This document shows positions 28,380 through 40,799 of a stretch of 64,000 nucleotides of DNA, in pieces; within the stretch, counting starts at the first letter, position 1, and each line of letters opens with the position of its first letter. Location: positions 1,488,001 to 1,552,000 of the forward strand of contig NZ_AP019841.1 of NCBI RefSeq assembly GCF_007990445.1, in the 5' to 3' direction. The notes below the pieces were generated by a model that ran no database searches, had not been told where the DNA came from, and was given only the letters and a program-made list of their open reading frames with translations. The stretch is from Leptotrichia wadei (lineage in GTDB: Bacteria; Fusobacteriota; Fusobacteriia; Fusobacteriales; Leptotrichiaceae). Position numbers and translations under genes: made by a program.

Positions 28380-29330
28380 TTATATCTTCATCAATTTTTT
28401 TAAATAATCCTTTGCTATCTCATCATTTTCTATTAATCTTAGACTGTTTACTATTGATATTCTATATTCTTTATCTACATTTTCCAAAAATTCATTTTCC
28501 AAAAGCGGAATTATTTCATCAAATCCTTTCACACCTAAAAATCTAACTAAATTTTTTCTTGTATCTAAATCAAATAATTTTAAATATTTTTTAAAAATTG
28601 GAATCACATTTTTATGTTTTTTTTCTAAAAGAATTAAGTCATAAATTGTATTAAAATTATAACCTAAATTATTTATTTCTTTTAAAAAGTTTTCCTGTAA
28701 ATTATTTGTTTCTTCTCTCTTGTATAAATATTCACTATTAAAATACTCTCCATAAAAAATTGATTTCATTTTATCCGTTATAATTTTATAAATTTTTTTT
28801 ATTTTTTCAATAAATTTCAATATTTCCTTTTTAAACTCTTCGATTTTAATAAAAGATTTTCCTTTTAAATTAGTAAATTCAATTTTATATGTCATATTAT
28901 CTCTATATTTATTTGTACTATCCCAAGAAACTTCTATTTTATCATTAATTTTTCTAAACATTACATCAGGATACACCATTTCGAGTCCTGAAAAAGTCCA
29001 TAAATGCCGTTCACTCCATTCATGAATTTTTTCAAACCATTCTATCTCTTCATGATTCTTATTTCCCATTTCATATGCTTTTTCTCTTATTTCAATTCCA
29101 CAATTTCCTTTTATTTTATACGGAAACTTATCTTCTTCACTCAAAATAAATTTTAAATTATTCTCAAACCAATCCGATAAAAATATTAAATTTGCTGTAT
29201 CCTTTTCTATTTTCCCATCAACTGTAAATTCACAAATATTTTTTCCTTCAATTTTTAATTCCAATTCAAAAGCTGCATAAAAAAATTCTGGTCTATGAAT
29301 AAAATTTATTGAAAATTTTTTTGGTTTCAT
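28380..29330 (-). CDS. Uncharacterised protein with C-terminal HEAT-like helices
   Basis: I do not recognise this 316-residue protein. The first 170 residues look like mixed beta structure (for example AAFELELKIEGKNICEF, KIEVSWDSTNKYRDN). The rest is helical, and two units such as NVIPIFKKYLKLFD and DEIIPLLENEFLENVD resemble HEAT repeats. There is no signal peptide or membrane segment. It is a lone gene between the Nudix gene and tnpB copy B, with low G+C like its surroundings. It may be a member of a Fusobacteriota-specific family. Confidence 0.7.
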   Translation of the reverse strand: MKPKKFSINFIHRPEFFYAAFELELKIEGKNICEFTVDGKIEKDTANLIFLSDWFENNLKFILSEEDKFPYKIKGNCGIEIREKAYEMGNKNHEEIEWFEKIHEWSERHLWTFSGLEMVYPDVMFRKINDKIEVSWDSTNKYRDNMTYKIEFTNLKGKSFIKIEEFKKEILKFIEKIKKIYKIITDKMKSIFYGEYFNSEYLYKREETNNLQENFLKEINNLGYNFNTIYDLILLEKKHKNVIPIFKKYLKLFDLDTRKNLVRFLGVKGFDEIIPLLENEFLENVDKEYRISIVNSLRLIENDEIAKDYLKKLMKI

Positions 29331-29524: not shown

Positions 29525-30619
29525 CTAATATTTCAACATTTCTTTTCCAACATCTCTTATATTCAGTGCCGCATTATAATCTCTATCAATTTCAATCCCA
29601 CAGCACTCACATTTATAACTTCTTTCTGATAATTTCAGTTCCTCTTTAACGTTTCCACATTTACTGCAAGTTTTCGACGATGGAAACCACTTATCTATCT
29701 TCAAAAATTGCTTTCCTAAAAACATCAGTTTATACTCAAGCATTCTCAAAAACATTCCCCATCCATTATCTCCTACACTTTTCCCAAAATTTAATGCCTG
29801 ACTCATCCCTTTCATATTCAAATTTTCAACAACCACAGCATTATAATCTTCAGATAATTTTCTCGATAATTTATGTAGAAAATCTCTTCGGCAATTTTTG
29901 ATATACTCATGTAATTTCGATATTTTCGCTTTTTGCTTATACCAATTTTTAGAAAATTTCACTTTTTTTGATAATGATTTCTGCAATTTTTTCAATTCTT
30001 CTTCCAACATCCTAAAATATCTTGGATAATCAGCCCTTTGGTTTTCAGAACTGACAAATAATTCAGACATTGAAAAATCAAGCCCAATCACTTTATCTTT
30101 ACTAGCTACCTTTTGAATTTCTTTTTCAAATTCCGTCAAAACAGAAACATAGTAATTTCCATTACTGTTTGTCAATGTTACCGACTTTATTCTATAATTC
30201 TTTGGTATTTCTCTATGATATTTTAATTTTATTCTTTTCAATTTCGGCAAAATCAAATATTTGTTTTCCTCTATTCTTATCGGATTGTTCACACAATTTG
30301 TCGTATAACTTTTAACACTATTCTTTTTAGATTTGAACCTTGGAAATTTCGCTCTCTTCTGAAAAAAATTCGTAAATGATCGTTTTACATTCAATTGAGC
30401 ATTTGAAAGTGCCAAACTGTCTACTTCTTTTAGAAATTGATTTTCACTTTTCAAACTGGCAGGTGTAATTATTTTATTTTTTCCAGCTTCATAAAATTTA
30501 TTCGCAGTATACAAGATCGTATTGTAGACAAAACGAACACATCCAAAAGTCTTATTTATCAATAATTCCTGCTCTTTATTTGGATAAATTCTATATTTGA
30601 ATGCTAAATTATATTTCAT
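29525..30619 (-). CDS. tnpB: RNA-guided endonuclease TnpB, copy B
   Basis: The 364-residue intact protein starts at ATG 30619 with an AGGAGG site. It has an N-terminal helix-turn-helix (AFKYRIYPNKEQELLINKTF) and the split RuvC domain: Asp in VIGLDFSMSE, Glu in VVVENLNMKGM, and Asp in DRDYNAALN. The four-cysteine zinc ribbon is CSKCGN and CECCG. Family members cut DNA next to a short motif, guided by RNA from the element's right end, and help the element persist. It could serve copy A in trans. Confidence 0.93.
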   Translation of the reverse strand: MKYNLAFKYRIYPNKEQELLINKTFGCVRFVYNTILYTANKFYEAGKNKIITPASLKSENQFLKEVDSLALSNAQLNVKRSFTNFFQKRAKFPRFKSKKNSVKSYTTNCVNNPIRIEENKYLILPKLKRIKLKYHREIPKNYRIKSVTLTNSNGNYYVSVLTEFEKEIQKVASKDKVIGLDFSMSELFVSSENQRADYPRYFRMLEEELKKLQKSLSKKVKFSKNWYKQKAKISKLHEYIKNCRRDFLHKLSRKLSEDYNAVVVENLNMKGMSQALNFGKSVGDNGWGMFLRMLEYKLMFLGKQFLKIDKWFPSSKTCSKCGNVKEELKLSERSYKCECCGIEIDRDYNAALNIRDVGKEMLKY

Positions 30620-30756: not shown

Positions 30757-31938
30757 CTAGTCTTCCAAAATTTCCTTCGCAAAACTTCCTTCTTTTTCAG
30801 TCCCCAATAAAATTTCCTCAACAGTCGCCGCAATATCAGCAAAAGTTTTTCTAGTTCCAATATTTACATTCTTTTTAACATTTTTACCGTAAATCAATAT
30901 TGGAATGTACTCTCTTGTGTGGTCTGTCCCTTTATAAGTAGGGTCATTTCCGTGATCGGCAGTGATAATCAAGATTTCATCATCTTTCAAGTTTTTCTCA
31001 ATTTCAGGTAACCAATTGTCAAATTCAATCAAAGCATTTACATAACCTTCCACATTTCTTCTATGCCCATAAACTGCATCAAAGTCAACCAAATTAGTAA
31101 AAATCAATCCTTTTGTATCTTCTTTCAATGCCACAATTGTTTTCTTAATTCCATCCAAATTATCTTGATTAGCTTTTCTGTTGTCTGTAATTCCTTTTCC
31201 ATTGAACAGGTCGCTCGTTTTTCCAATTCCAACTACATCAAGTCCAGCTTTTTCCAATCTTTCAAGCATTGTTTCTTTTGGCGGATCAATCGAAAAGTCG
31301 TGTCTGTTCGCAGTTCTTTTAAATTCTCCAACTTTTTTACCAACATAAGGTCTTGCAATTACCCTTGCCACAGGTGATTTTTCATTACAAATTTCAAGTG
31401 CGATTTCACATGCTTTGTAAAGTTCTTCTAATGGTATAATTTCTTCATTCGCAGCAATTTGAAACACAGGGTCTGCTGAACCGTAAACTATCCAATTTCC
31501 AGTTTTAATTTGTTCTTCTCCATATTGGTCAATCGCTACAGTTCCTGAAATTGGCTTATTCAACATAGCTTTTCTTCCAGTTTTTTCTTCAAATTCCTTT
31601 ATAACTTCATCTGAAAATCCATTTTGATAGTTTGGAAACGGTCTTTCCAACGGCACACCAGCAATTTCCCAATGTCCAGTCGTAGAATCTTTCCCATGCG
31701 ACACCTCAATCGCTCTTCCATAGGCCCCTTCAGCACTTTCCACAGCTGGAGTCCCTTCAATCTCAGTAATATTTCCAAGTCCTAATTTACCCATATTAGG
31801 CAAACTCATTCCACCGTGAGCTTTCGCCATATTTCCTAAAGTATTTGACCCACAGTCATCAAATAAATTCGCATCAGGCAATTCTCCTGCTCCAACACTG
31901 TCTAAAACTATTATTGTTATTCTTTCAATTTTTTTCAT
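30757..31938 (-). CDS. deoB: Phosphopentomutase
   Basis: The 393-residue alkaline-phosphatase-superfamily enzyme interconverts (deoxy)ribose 1- and 5-phosphates. It begins MKKIERITIIVLDSVGAGE, with the first metal Asp. HGKDSTTGHWE holds the phosphorylated Thr, and the metal ligands recur in DFSIDPPKE and ITADHGNDPTYKGTDHTRE. The start ATG 31938 has an AAGGA site; the open frame further upstream is not conserved. With deoC at 38748 it completes the deoxynucleoside salvage route, though the two genes are not in one operon. Copy B of the tnpB element lies right behind it. Confidence 0.95.
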   Translation of the reverse strand: MKKIERITIIVLDSVGAGELPDANLFDDCGSNTLGNMAKAHGGMSLPNMGKLGLGNITEIEGTPAVESAEGAYGRAIEVSHGKDSTTGHWEIAGVPLERPFPNYQNGFSDEVIKEFEEKTGRKAMLNKPISGTVAIDQYGEEQIKTGNWIVYGSADPVFQIAANEEIIPLEELYKACEIALEICNEKSPVARVIARPYVGKKVGEFKRTANRHDFSIDPPKETMLERLEKAGLDVVGIGKTSDLFNGKGITDNRKANQDNLDGIKKTIVALKEDTKGLIFTNLVDFDAVYGHRRNVEGYVNALIEFDNWLPEIEKNLKDDEILIITADHGNDPTYKGTDHTREYIPILIYGKNVKKNVNIGTRKTFADIAATVEEILLGTEKEGSFAKEILED

Positions 31939-32026: not shown

Positions 32027-33256
32027 TTAGTAATTAGAACCAAATATAAACATAGCCATATATGATTTATATTCAATAATTTTAATAGAAAATGTAACAT
32101 ATGTGTAATATTCATATAAATATGCACAGTTTTTACATTTATCTTCTTCTAATAAATAAAAATTCAATGGTTTTCCCAGTCCGTTTATATAATATTTTGT
32201 TTCAATAGTTTCAAAAAAATCTTTATAATATTTATATTCTCTATCATTTTGATTCTCTATTATAAAATCAACTGATTCAGAATAGTGATTACATTTTTTG
32301 AATGAAATTTCCATATTTTGTATTTCTTTTATAGTATTATTGTATATCAATTTTCTTTTTCTAGTTTCTTCTGGAATCAACGCAGAAAATTTATTTTTTA
32401 TCGCTGTACTAAAATCTATTTCATTATTTTCTCCTATATAAAAAGCATCAAATTTAAAATCTACTGTTATATCTTCAACTTCAACATCTTTAAACAATCC
32501 AATATATGCACCATTTAAAAAATTAGAAATATTTTCTTCCTCATATAATTTTGAAGTTCTTTTTTTTAATTTTTTTAGATTATCTTTTATAATTTGAAGT
32601 ATAAAAACAACAAAAAGGTTTAATGATTCCGATTTTTTTGATTTATTGATAATTTCATAATATTTTTCTATATTTTCTTGTATTAATATTTCTAATGGTA
32701 TCCATGCAAAAAAACTTTTCCATTTTGATAAAATTAAAATTTGCCATAATCTTCCCATTCTACCATCTTCAAAATGTGACATTTTTGCTATTTCATAATG
32801 TAAAATACAAGATTTTATTAAAATATTCAATTTACTCTTTTTTAACCAAGAAAATAATTCTTTTAAATATTTTGAAAAATTTTGAACTAAATCTTTGTTA
32901 TCTGAATTTACCAAAATTCTATAAATATCTAAAAAATCCTTTACTGAAAATGGATTTAAAAATTCTATTTTCTCATAAAGATCATTTATCTTTTTTATTT
33001 TTTCTATATTTTCAAATGATAGTTCACTTGAATTCCCTTTTACTATATTTGAAACTTCTTCTAAAGTTAAGTCTTTAATTTTATTCTTAAACATTAAATA
33101 AATTATTTCTATCCTATTTTTATATTTTATAACAAAATCAGGATTCGTTTTTTCTAAAATTGTTATTTCTCCAACTATCTCTGTAATTTCAGTCAAAAGA
33201 TTCATTACATTATTTGTAATCTTAAATGCTGGATTATAACCACATTCTTTTCCCAT
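32027..33256 (-). CDS. Degenerate Fic-fold protein with novel C-terminal domain
   Basis: The 409-residue protein follows the Fic-family helical layout: FKITNNVMNLLTEITEIVGEI (start), NPFSVKDFLDIYRILV, LIKSCILHYEIAKM, then GRLWQILILSKW and FAWIPLEILIQENIEKYY. The expected catalytic HPFxDGNGR loop is SHFEDGR (160-166): the His is shifted or replaced and the phosphate-binding NG is missing. The flap segment that normally follows the KFR motif between residues 117 and 120 is also absent. Catalysis by the usual AMP-transfer route should be impossible. Residues about 245-409 match nothing I know and replace the usual C-terminal winged helix. It begins 17 bp after the upstream gene ends. Confidence 0.68.
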   Translation of the reverse strand: MGKECGYNPAFKITNNVMNLLTEITEIVGEITILEKTNPDFVIKYKNRIEIIYLMFKNKIKDLTLEEVSNIVKGNSSELSFENIEKIKKINDLYEKIEFLNPFSVKDFLDIYRILVNSDNKDLVQNFSKYLKELFSWLKKSKLNILIKSCILHYEIAKMSHFEDGRMGRLWQILILSKWKSFFAWIPLEILIQENIEKYYEIINKSKKSESLNLFVVFILQIIKDNLKKLKKRTSKLYEEENISNFLNGAYIGLFKDVEVEDITVDFKFDAFYIGENNEIDFSTAIKNKFSALIPEETRKRKLIYNNTIKEIQNMEISFKKCNHYSESVDFIIENQNDREYKYYKDFFETIETKYYINGLGKPLNFYLLEEDKCKNCAYLYEYYTYVTFSIKIIEYKSYMAMFIFGSNY

Positions 33257-33272
33257 ATCCTCAAATCATCCT

Positions 33273-34139
33273 TTATTTTTTATAATTTTTAGGCATTACA
33301 TTATTTTGGAAATAATAGAAATTAAATTTTACACTATTAAAATTTGTATTTTCATAATTAATTATTACTTTTTTATCTGTTTCAAAAAAATCATCCATAA
33401 TATAAATTTCTTTTTTCTTTTCAGATATTGATATACTGCAATTATTATATCTTTTCATAATATAATCTTTTCTAAAAAATTTTATCATAGTCATCACTAG
33501 TAATAATATTATTATTACAAATAATTCAATCATTAATTCTAAATCCCCCCAAGCAACTCCAACCGAAAAAATTGATACTATGCTAAATATTGAACAGCAC
33601 AACATATGAAATCTTTCAAAAATCGAATATCTCACATATAATTTTTCTCCATTCACTTTTTCACGAATTTCTTTTTCAGGATAACCTATTTTCTCCAAAA
33701 AATATTCCAAAATTTCATCTTTATCTTTTATATCACAAAAAACATAACTTTTCTCATGATTATTTTCTATTGAAACATCAGTTACCAAATTATAAACACT
33801 TATTGTACTGTCAAAATTTAAAAGAATATCATACGATCCTAATATATTCTTTCTAACTATCAATTCCTTTATGTCACTATATTCAATAGTTTTCTCAAAA
33901 AATAGACCTTTTATTTTGACCTCATAATCAGAAAAATCAAATTTTATCTTGCTTTTAATAATCATTACCAAAAGAAATCTGTATACAAAATAACTTATTC
34001 CAATAACCAAAAAAATTATTCCAACCTTTTCTTTTTTATTAAATAAAATATCAATTCCTCCTAATAAATGACTTAAATATATTACTAGAAAAAATATATC
34101 CCACATATTAATTTCAAATTTTGAATATCTTATTTTCAT
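33273..34139 (-). CDS. Uncharacterised membrane protein, possible PH-like domain
   Basis: The 288-residue protein has two N-terminal membrane segments (IFFLVIYLSHLLG and GIIFLVIGISYFVYRFLLVMII) and two central ones (SIFSIVSIFSVGVAW and LFVIIILLLVMTMI). Between them is a soluble stretch rich in strands (EVKIKGLFFEKTIEYSDIKEL), like bacterial PH domains. The start ATG 34139 is fixed by a GGAGA site that overlaps an earlier ATG at 34154. It lies 16 bp upstream of the Fic-like gene, so the two are probably cotranscribed. No function can be given. Confidence 0.7.
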   Translation of the reverse strand: MKIRYSKFEINMWDIFFLVIYLSHLLGGIDILFNKKEKVGIIFLVIGISYFVYRFLLVMIIKSKIKFDFSDYEVKIKGLFFEKTIEYSDIKELIVRKNILGSYDILLNFDSTISVYNLVTDVSIENNHEKSYVFCDIKDKDEILEYFLEKIGYPEKEIREKVNGEKLYVRYSIFERFHMLCCSIFSIVSIFSVGVAWGDLELMIELFVIIILLLVMTMIKFFRKDYIMKRYNNCSISISEKKKEIYIMDDFFETDKKVIINYENTNFNSVKFNFYYFQNNVMPKNYKK

Positions 34140-34231
34140 ATAATTTATCTCCATATTTTACTATTTCTTTCAATACTTTCTCCCTTTTTTTATTTAATTA
34201 TATCTTTTCTCTATTTTAAAAGCAATTAATT

Positions 34232-34918
34232 TTAATATTTTTTATAATATTTCTCTACAATATCTGTTACATCTATGCTTACATCTAGTTCTGTATTCAA
34301 ATATATTTTATCATCCTTTTTCAAAAATGCTTCCCAAATTTTTCCCGTATTCAAATAAGCCGTAACAATTTCAAAATCATTTTTTAAAATTTTTACTATT
34401 CCTCTATTTCTTAGTTTCGATACTTCTTTAAAAAAATTTTCAATATTATCATCTAATTTATCTATATCAACAAAATATATATCATAAAATAATTGTTTTT
34501 TATATTCTTCAAATGTATCAAAATATCCTTTAAAATTACTCAATCCTAACCACTGCAACAAAATATCTGAATAAGAAATTTTATTTATTAAACTTATTTC
34601 TTCTTTAGATATCAACCTTAATAACTGCTGTTCAGTAAATTTCAAAGGTAAATATTTATAATCGTACTGATGAATCTTTTCTCGAAATGGAACCATTAAA
34701 AAATTATTCTCAAATTTTACTATACCCGTATCACATTTATTTTTTATATCCCCATAATTAAATTCAAACACAAACTTATATCGTGCTTCTTCATTATAAG
34801 AAATTAATTCATAACAGTATCCATAATAAACAATTTCATTATTTTTCATAATTTGAAGGTAATCCTCATAGCAACTATCATAATAATTTTCATCCCAAGT
34901 AATTATACTTACATCCAT
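34232..34918 (-). CDS. Uncharacterised protein (228 aa)
   Basis: Not recognised. It is an acidic, Tyr/Asp-rich soluble protein that starts MDVSIITWDENYYDSCYEDY with an AGGATGAG site. It appears to be alpha+beta throughout (for example YKFVFEFNYGDIK and FFKEVSKLRNRGIVKIL). There is no signal or membrane segment. It lies 92 bp upstream of the membrane-protein gene and in the same direction, so it may be part of one transcriptional unit with the Fic-like gene. Confidence 0.65.
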   Translation of the reverse strand: MDVSIITWDENYYDSCYEDYLQIMKNNEIVYYGYCYELISYNEEARYKFVFEFNYGDIKNKCDTGIVKFENNFLMVPFREKIHQYDYKYLPLKFTEQQLLRLISKEEISLINKISYSDILLQWLGLSNFKGYFDTFEEYKKQLFYDIYFVDIDKLDDNIENFFKEVSKLRNRGIVKILKNDFEIVTAYLNTGKIWEAFLKKDDKIYLNTELDVSIDVTDIVEKYYKKY

Positions 34919-34999: not shown

Positions 35000-35221
35000 T
35001 TATTTCTTCCTATACTTTCTCCCTTTCTTCTCTCCAAATGCCTCCAAAATCCCACCTTTCACAAGTTTATTCAAAAATCTTCTTGCCGTAGAATCCGAAA
35101 CATTCAAAATCTTTTGAGCCTCACTATTGTCAATATAATTATTTTTCTCAAAATACATTTCCAGTATTTTCAGTCTTTGAAGCTCTTTATCAGTCATTTT
35201 ATCAGTCAAAATATCAGTCAT
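35000..35221 (-). CDS. Winged-helix protein, perhaps the remnant of a larger regulator
   Basis: The 73-residue protein has a clear winged helix: RLKILEMYFEKNNYIDNSEAQ, ILNVSDSTARRFLNKLVKGG, then a short basic wing (EAFGEKKGRKYRKK). It begins with a repeated MTDxxTDKMTDKE linker. Such linkers join an ATPase (AlbA_2/RecG-like) domain to this kind of winged helix in larger proteins, and there is no good ribosome site here. It may therefore be the surviving C-terminal piece of a deleted gene, or a small stand-alone DNA-binding protein. Confidence 0.55.
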   Translation of the reverse strand: MTDILTDKMTDKELQRLKILEMYFEKNNYIDNSEAQKILNVSDSTARRFLNKLVKGGILEAFGEKKGRKYRKK

Positions 35222-35335: not shown

Positions 35336-36061
35336 TTACTCCACCTCAAAAACCGCCATATACGGCAGATGATCCGACAATTTCGTCCAATTCCTTGAAT
35401 TATCATTAATATAAAAACTCTTTTTTGCTTTGTAATCTGTCCTCTTTTTTGCCATCACATAATCAATTCTAGGCGTTTCAAGCTCCCTATTTTCTGAGTT
35501 TTTCTTATTTTCCAAATCTCTACCTTGAAAATAGCTGTCATTCCAATCTTTCCTGATTTTCGCATAATATTCTGTCGTTGGCAAAAGATTAAAATCTCCA
35601 CACAAAAACTTCACATCGCCCTTAAATCCCTCGATTGTAGCAAATAAATCATCCAACTCCTCATTTTTATTGTCCAAACTGTTATCAAGATGTGTATTCA
35701 CAACTAAAATTTTCTTTTTAAATTTTGAAGTATTCAATCTAGCTGCCAAAACTTGCCTTTTTTCTTTGCTTTTACCAGGTAGCTGATGAATGTAAATATT
35801 TTTCACATCATACTTTGAAATAAACGCAATTCCAAACTCACCTTTATCAAAATCCATCGTTTTCTGAAAATAATGATAATGATAACCCAATTCCTGTGCC
35901 ATTTCCTGTACAACATCTCGAAATTTACTTCTTTTTGTATTTCTATCAACTTCCTGAAGTCCGATAAAATCTGGATTATATTTTTTCAAGCTCCGAGCAA
36001 GTTCCCTTCCATTGGTAAGCCTTGCCCCAAAAATATTGTATGTTATAATTCTAAATTCCAT
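35336..36061 (-). CDS. Endonuclease/exonuclease/phosphatase-family protein
   Basis: This 241-residue EEP-fold protein begins MEFRIITYNIFGARL (metal/phosphate Asn) and has IGLQEVDRN (metal Glu), VVNTHLDN (catalytic His), CGDFNLLP (Asp/Asn), PRIDYVM and LSDHLPYMAVFEV. Cytoplasmic, no signal peptide. It differs from the EEP protein at 10834 and has no sugar-gene context, so nuclease and phosphatase roles are both open. It stands alone. Confidence 0.85.
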   Translation of the reverse strand: MEFRIITYNIFGARLTNGRELARSLKKYNPDFIGLQEVDRNTKRSKFRDVVQEMAQELGYHYHYFQKTMDFDKGEFGIAFISKYDVKNIYIHQLPGKSKEKRQVLAARLNTSKFKKKILVVNTHLDNSLDNKNEELDDLFATIEGFKGDVKFLCGDFNLLPTTEYYAKIRKDWNDSYFQGRDLENKKNSENRELETPRIDYVMAKKRTDYKAKKSFYINDNSRNWTKLSDHLPYMAVFEVE

Positions 36062-39698: not shown

Positions 39699-40799
39699 CT
39701 AATATTCCAACATCAATTTTCCAATGTTTTTTATATTCAATGCTGCATTGTAATCTCTATCAATTTCAATCCCACAGCATTCACATTTATAATTTCTTTC
39801 TGATAATTTCAATTTCTCTTTAACATTTCCACATTTACTGCAAGTTTTCGATGACGGGAACCATTTATCTATCTTCAAAAATTGTTTCCCCAAAAACATC
39901 AGTTTATACTCAAGCATTCTCAAAAACATTCCCCATCCATTATCTCCTACACTTTTCCCAAAATTTAATGCCTGACTCATCCCTCTCATATTCAAATCCT
40001 CAACAACCACAGCATTATATGTTTCAGACAATTTTTTCGATAATTTATGTAGAAAATCTCTTCGACAATTTTTGATATATTCATGCAATTTTGATATTTT
40101 CATTTTTTGTTTATACCAATTTTTAGAAAATTTCACTTTTCTTGACAATGATTTTTGTAATTTTTTCAATTTTTCTTCCAACATCCTAAAATATCTTGGA
40201 TAATCAGCCCTTTGGTTTTCAGAACTAATAAATAACTCAGACATTGAAAAATCAAGTCCAATTACTTTATCATTATTACTAGCTACTTTTTGAATTTCTT
40301 TTTCAAATTCCGTCAAAACAGAAACATAGTAATTTCCATTACTGTTTGTCAATGTTACCGACTTTATTCTATAATTCTTTGGTATTTCTCTATGATATTT
40401 TAATTTAACTTTTTTCAATTTTGGCAAAATCAAATATTTATTTTCCTCAATTCGTATCGAATTGTTCACACAATTTGTCGTGTAACTTTTAACACTATTC
40501 TTTTTAGATTTGAATCTTGGAAACTTTGCTCTCTTTTGAAAGAAATTCGTAAATGATCGTCTCACATTCAATTGAGCATTTGAAAGTGCCAAACTGTCCA
40601 CTTCTTTTAAAAATTGATTTTCACTTTTCAAACTGGCAGGTGTAATTATTTTATTTTTTCCAGTTTCTTCATAAAATTTATTCGCAGTATACAAAATCGT
40701 ATTGTAAACAAAACGAACACATCCAAAAGTCTTGTTTATCAACAATTCCTGCTCTTTATTTGGATAAATTCTGTACTTGAATGCCAAATTATATTTCAT
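39699..40799 (-). CDS. tnpB: RNA-guided endonuclease TnpB, copy C
   Basis: This 366-residue intact copy differs from copy B at scattered residues and by small indels. RuvC residues are in VIGLDFSMSE, VVVEDLNMRGM and DRDYNAALN. The zinc ribbon CSKCGN...CECCG is present. AGGAGG precedes ATG 40799. With copy B it is one of two apparently functional TnpB genes in the window. Confidence 0.93.
   Translation of the reverse strand: MKYNLAFKYRIYPNKEQELLINKTFGCVRFVYNTILYTANKFYEETGKNKIITPASLKSENQFLKEVDSLALSNAQLNVRRSFTNFFQKRAKFPRFKSKKNSVKSYTTNCVNNSIRIEENKYLILPKLKKVKLKYHREIPKNYRIKSVTLTNSNGNYYVSVLTEFEKEIQKVASNNDKVIGLDFSMSELFISSENQRADYPRYFRMLEEKLKKLQKSLSRKVKFSKNWYKQKMKISKLHEYIKNCRRDFLHKLSKKLSETYNAVVVEDLNMRGMSQALNFGKSVGDNGWGMFLRMLEYKLMFLGKQFLKIDKWFPSSKTCSKCGNVKEKLKLSERNYKCECCGIEIDRDYNAALNIKNIGKLMLEY

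Follow-up and report, generated by a model that had tools for sequence, protein, structure and literature searches.

Analysis of a 64,000-nucleotide stretch of DNA (the window) from the oral bacterium Leptotrichia wadei points to a 409-residue open reading frame (32027-33256, minus strand, open from its ATG) as a chimera within a gene array of the immunity type, in which a non-catalytic Fic remnant is followed by a domain of the p192 type and which is now decaying; we give this reading a probability of roughly 0.6, on small counts of changes and for a gene carried by two species only. The degenerate Fic part (residues 1-236; 32549-33256, minus) is delimited by its match to a solved Fic structure, its alignment with intact Fic proteins, and its fold match, and the C-terminal domain (residues 237-409; 32027-32548, minus) by tblastn and end-to-end alignment with p192. 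In this gene, fic2::p192-like, the N-terminal 236 residues are a rapidly evolving duplicate of the locus's own fic gene, having lost the catalytic His, the anion-binding loop, the flap, the inhibitory-helix motif, and the winged helix, and have been joined in frame to a paralogue of p192 at the start position of the p192-type protein. In the proposed reading, the Fic half would serve at most to carry the C-terminal domain as its translated N-terminal part, and the two known copies would be drifting towards pseudogenes, that of L. hongkongensis being already broken and that of the window still open. A preliminary description of the reading frame had recognised the fold, the lost loop, the lost flap, and the foreign C-terminus, all of which stand; its view of the protein as a selected pseudo-enzyme with a binding role is not supported.

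The Degenerate Fic Half

The closest solved structure to the protein, both by sequence and by predicted fold, is PDB 4rgl. A phmmer search against the PDB gave E = 2.9e-27, the matched segments (residues 3-116 and 128-229) flanking the flap. A Foldseek search with an AlphaFold model, for which the protein was aligned with its intact Leptotrichia Fic counterparts and which is moderately confident at residues 5-237 only, returned 4rgl as the best match (E = 1.2e-11) and further Fic structures after it. Because the two approaches agree on 4rgl, the helical Fic framework seen in the preliminary description is real, and the structure prediction and fold search proposed there gave a Fic protein as top match rather than none. 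The Pfam Fic family (PF02661) scores 23.4 bits in hmmscan, just below the 24-bit cut-off, and 24.5 bits in the genome search. The helical framework and the N-terminal region are those of class II Fic proteins with a C-terminal winged helix, such as Dde_2494 (4rgl) and SoFic; in contrast to these, the present protein lacks the catalytic His, the flap, and the inhibitory-helix motif, its active loop is shortened, and its winged helix is replaced.

The extent of these losses is apparent from an alignment with eight intact Fic proteins (alignment A2). The motif HPFx[D/E]GN[G/K]R with its catalytic His is absent, and the degenerate loop SHFEDGR (residues 160-166; 32759-32779, minus) is two residues shorter than in the intact proteins, HPFQDGNGRLGR being aligned with SHFED--GRMGR. 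Both the loss of the catalytic loop and the 6-base difference in it, for which slippage may be the cause, had been described correctly, with one correction: the His of SHFEDGR (His161) occupies the column of the motif Pro, and the column of the catalytic His holds Ser160. At about residues 114-126 (32879-32917, minus), between the flanking 4rgl matches, 22 residues of the flap region are missing, and the model consists there of helices with no hairpin, in agreement with the reported absence of a flap. The class II inhibitory helix with its conserved Glu is likewise gone, SSLAIEQN of the intact relatives having become LMFKNKIK at about residues 52-62 (33069-33101, minus), a loss also visible in the count of invariant columns. 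Of the residues in the 119 columns that do not vary among these eight proteins, the reading frame retains 57, for the most part in the helical core; another 57 are replaced and five deleted.

The active-site motif and the flap edge have both been described as required for adenylylation (PMC3667792), and to judge from its sequence the Fic half probably carries out no AMP transfer. An active enzyme with altered chemistry, working despite the degenerate loop, is hardly credible. Its precedent would be Fic2 of Campylobacter fetus (PMC5651007), which resembles the present protein in having a motif off the adenylylation consensus and in lying beside another fic gene, and which is toxic; but C. fetus Fic2 retains and needs the motif His, whereas the Leptotrichia protein has Ser in its place and no flap. 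A literature search for Fic pseudo-enzymes retrieved none with the terms used.

As for its origin, similarity in DNA between the Fic half and fic1, the fic gene of the array, begins 33 nt before the start codon, and in a protein tree the Fic half joins fic1 on a branch of 1.27 amino acid changes per site, the branches of intact fic1 measuring 0.02-0.06. Between the Fic half and fic1, dN is 0.44 and dS about 0.9-1.1; between fic1 and a Fic protein of another family of the order the values are 0.21 and 1.5. The protein sequence of the duplicate has thus changed much faster than those of its relatives.

The C-Terminal Domain

Residues 237-409 match p192, a protein of 192 residues (tblastn, E = 6e-11), with which they align end to end at 29-31% identity, Met1 of p192 falling on residue 237. 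In nine related genomes p192 is a separate gene directly before deoB, the same position as that of the chimeric reading frame. The homology and the position of Met1 together indicate a Fic part fused to a paralogue of an array protein. The C-terminus had been noted as unlike a winged helix, which is correct; rather than having evolved anew to serve the Fic half, it is the homologue of a free-standing array protein. Where p192 starts, the reading frame has the codon TTA. The p192 family evolves under purifying selection (omega 0.13-0.37).

No Pfam family fits the domain, NuiA_2 (E = 0.01) remaining below its cut-off, and relatives of p192 outside Leptotrichia-type loci were not found in 98 genomes of the phylum. 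The structural model of the domain, with a mean pLDDT of 36, was too poor to interpret and was set aside. Several other species retain short C-domain remnants behind tm293, some of 57-63 nt, and loss of the C-domain gene has occurred repeatedly.

The Surrounding Array

The interval that ends at deoB (30757-31938, minus; start codon position read from the sequence) is variable across Leptotrichia and two neighbouring genera, with deoB as a fixed right border conserved in 15 loci. Its genes are co-oriented, and most loci begin with a gene of the type found at 35336-36061 (minus) in the window, which is endonuclease/exonuclease/phosphatase-like and whose product we take, from its sequence motifs, to have the endonuclease/exonuclease/phosphatase (EEP) fold. 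The set of genes found in between comprises fic1, o228, tm293, an Imm51 protein, a DUF2262-like protein, and p192. In the window, tm293 (33273-34154, minus), a membrane protein gene conserved in most species of the genus, lies 16 nt upstream of the chimeric frame, which is indeed encoded with a membrane protein as first described; it is preceded by o228 (34232-34918, minus), which like p192 is under purifying selection (omega 0.13-0.43 for the two), and by an orphan winged-helix tail of the ancestral fic1 (35000-35221, minus) that is 95% identical to residues 260-333 of the intact Fic protein of other species. Intact fic1 occurs in four species (G004, G005, G006, and G011); elsewhere, the window included, fic1 is left as its winged-helix tail only, whole or in part.

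Imm51 (PF15595) is matched with E = 1.7e-19 in sister loci of several species and is absent from the window copy of the array; the DUF2262 match falls just below its cut-off, and p192, o228, and tm293 match no named Imm family. In its small genes, arranged in tandem and in one orientation with short intervals between them, and in its variation in content from species to species, the Leptotrichia array resembles heterogeneous polyimmunity loci (PMC3482391), from which it differs by the fic gene or its remnants at the head and by the majority of members that match no named Imm family. Since most members have no such match and the window has no Imm51, an immunity function of the window genes is suggested by this likeness rather than read from the genes themselves. 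A link between fic and immunity genes outside the locus was looked for in one relative (G048), which lies, in the neighbours listed, among cobalamin-type genes and not beside immunity genes.

Several further features of the region were recorded. Intact fic1 at the array head was located at L033:7908-8906, L030:7655-8653, L031:7531-8529, and L032:7977-8975, and the PADLOC anti-phage SoFic model matches full-length fic1, with E = 1e-49 for the L033 copy, on which this was tested. A 29-nt copy of the fic 3′ end, detected by a repeat search upstream of tm293 (34162-34190, minus), recurs at the same place across species, and this piece (34162-34190 and 35001-35029) keeps a fixed distance upstream of tm293 wherever the start of that gene is intact. 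Two copies flank o228 where it occurs together with tm293, and a single copy is present in loci that lack o228; o228 behaves like a cassette gained or lost via recombination between fic-tail repeats. Two genomes from neighbouring genera (L105:7067-7327 and L106:7150-7360) also keep the fic winged-helix tail, as an orphan frame or a remnant, at about 90% identity, which suggests recent exchange of the array. Two TnpB-type genes, 94% identical, flank the region (29525-30619 and about 39702-40799), and more TnpB-type copies adjoin the array in other species. The interval 28380-29330 encodes a protein with a weak DUF5984 match and a HEAT-like end, possibly another array-type gene.

Evolution of the Two Copies

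Across 33 family genomes and, by one pattern scan, 84,980 species genomes, the only orthologue detected is that of L. hongkongensis JMUB5056, at 95% nucleotide identity; the matches to intact fic1 in a search of 98 phylum genomes included no further copy that is both degenerate and fused. As the L. hongkongensis copy carries the loop and flap losses too, these predate both copies. Its indel events, about ten in number, are confined to nt 254-691 and spare the C half, a clustering with P of about 0.003 under a uniform distribution. Sequencing error was considered as the source of the frameshifts and rejected: the indels cluster in fic2 and in tm293, whose frame is likewise shifted in L. hongkongensis, and the reading frames of deoB, o228, and the left-border gene are undisturbed. 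The comparison of orthologues suggested in the preliminary description is therefore mixed, in that the deletions are common to both copies but the frame is not conserved, the Fic half of L. hongkongensis being broken. An orthologue with an intact motif, which would have exposed the window copy as mere decay, was not found.

Substitutions between the copies number 24 nonsynonymous or nonsense to four synonymous in the Fic half, and seven to seven in the C half, the latter departing from neutrality at P = 0.03 and the two ratios differing at P = 0.024 (Fisher). An omega of 0.3 for the Fic half is rejected (P = 0.0003), and on the window branch, with fic1 and other intact Fic sequences as outgroup, its changes are seven nonsynonymous and none synonymous. 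By the 24:4 ratio and the 7:0 of the window branch, selection on the protein is not apparent in the Fic half, even in the copy whose frame is still open. In neutral simulations, several stops are expected after 0.1 changes per site, with a probability of about 0.003 of none, whereas the window frame is still open despite deep divergence, and the fusion and both deletions are also in frame. This argues for selection for translation through most of the history of the gene, plausibly because the frame carries the C domain.

The same observations bear on the two other functional readings. A selected pseudo-enzyme, in which the Fic scaffold serves as a binding module (a Fic protein or the target of one being possible partners) and an immunity-like function is contributed by the C-terminal domain, would account for a frame open across deep divergence, for three rearrangements that are all in frame, and for the many invariant helical-core residues and the Fic fold kept in the model; heterologous Fic-Fic neutralisation is moreover known from C. 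fetus (PMC5651007). This reading is nevertheless improbable, given neutral-like changes of the Fic half in both lineages, a broken orthologue, and the replacement of 57 of 119 invariant residues. Its more specific form, in which the dead fold and the immunity-type domain together act as a decoy or neutraliser against Fic-type toxins or their regulators, appears more doubtful still.

A working immunity-like chimera, with a p192-type domain functional in the window strain behind a tolerated Fic leader that supplies the start codon, is unlikely but deserves serious consideration. It fits a C half that is free of indels and in which 7 of 14 changes are synonymous, the purifying selection on the p192 family, and the TTA at the p192 start position, by which translation of the C half needs the upstream part. 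Against it, the C half of L. hongkongensis appears, as read from its sequence, to be unreachable from the Fic start and to have no obvious start of its own, and the C-domain remnants of other species mark the domain as dispensable. With so few sequences, a working chimera in the window strain may still have its place beside the preferred reading, that of a chimera in decay.

Implications

The chimera, probably decaying, belongs to a variable immunity-type array in which the gene for the head enzyme has been taken apart stepwise. What is left of that gene's 3′ end is an orphan reading frame and a repeat close to the cargo genes; its 5′ half, in a duplicated copy, now forms the front of another gene. 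For the Fic family, this counsels caution: a reading frame that is open and encodes a Fic fold lacking the motif can turn out to be a short-lived chimera and not a purposeful pseudo-enzyme.
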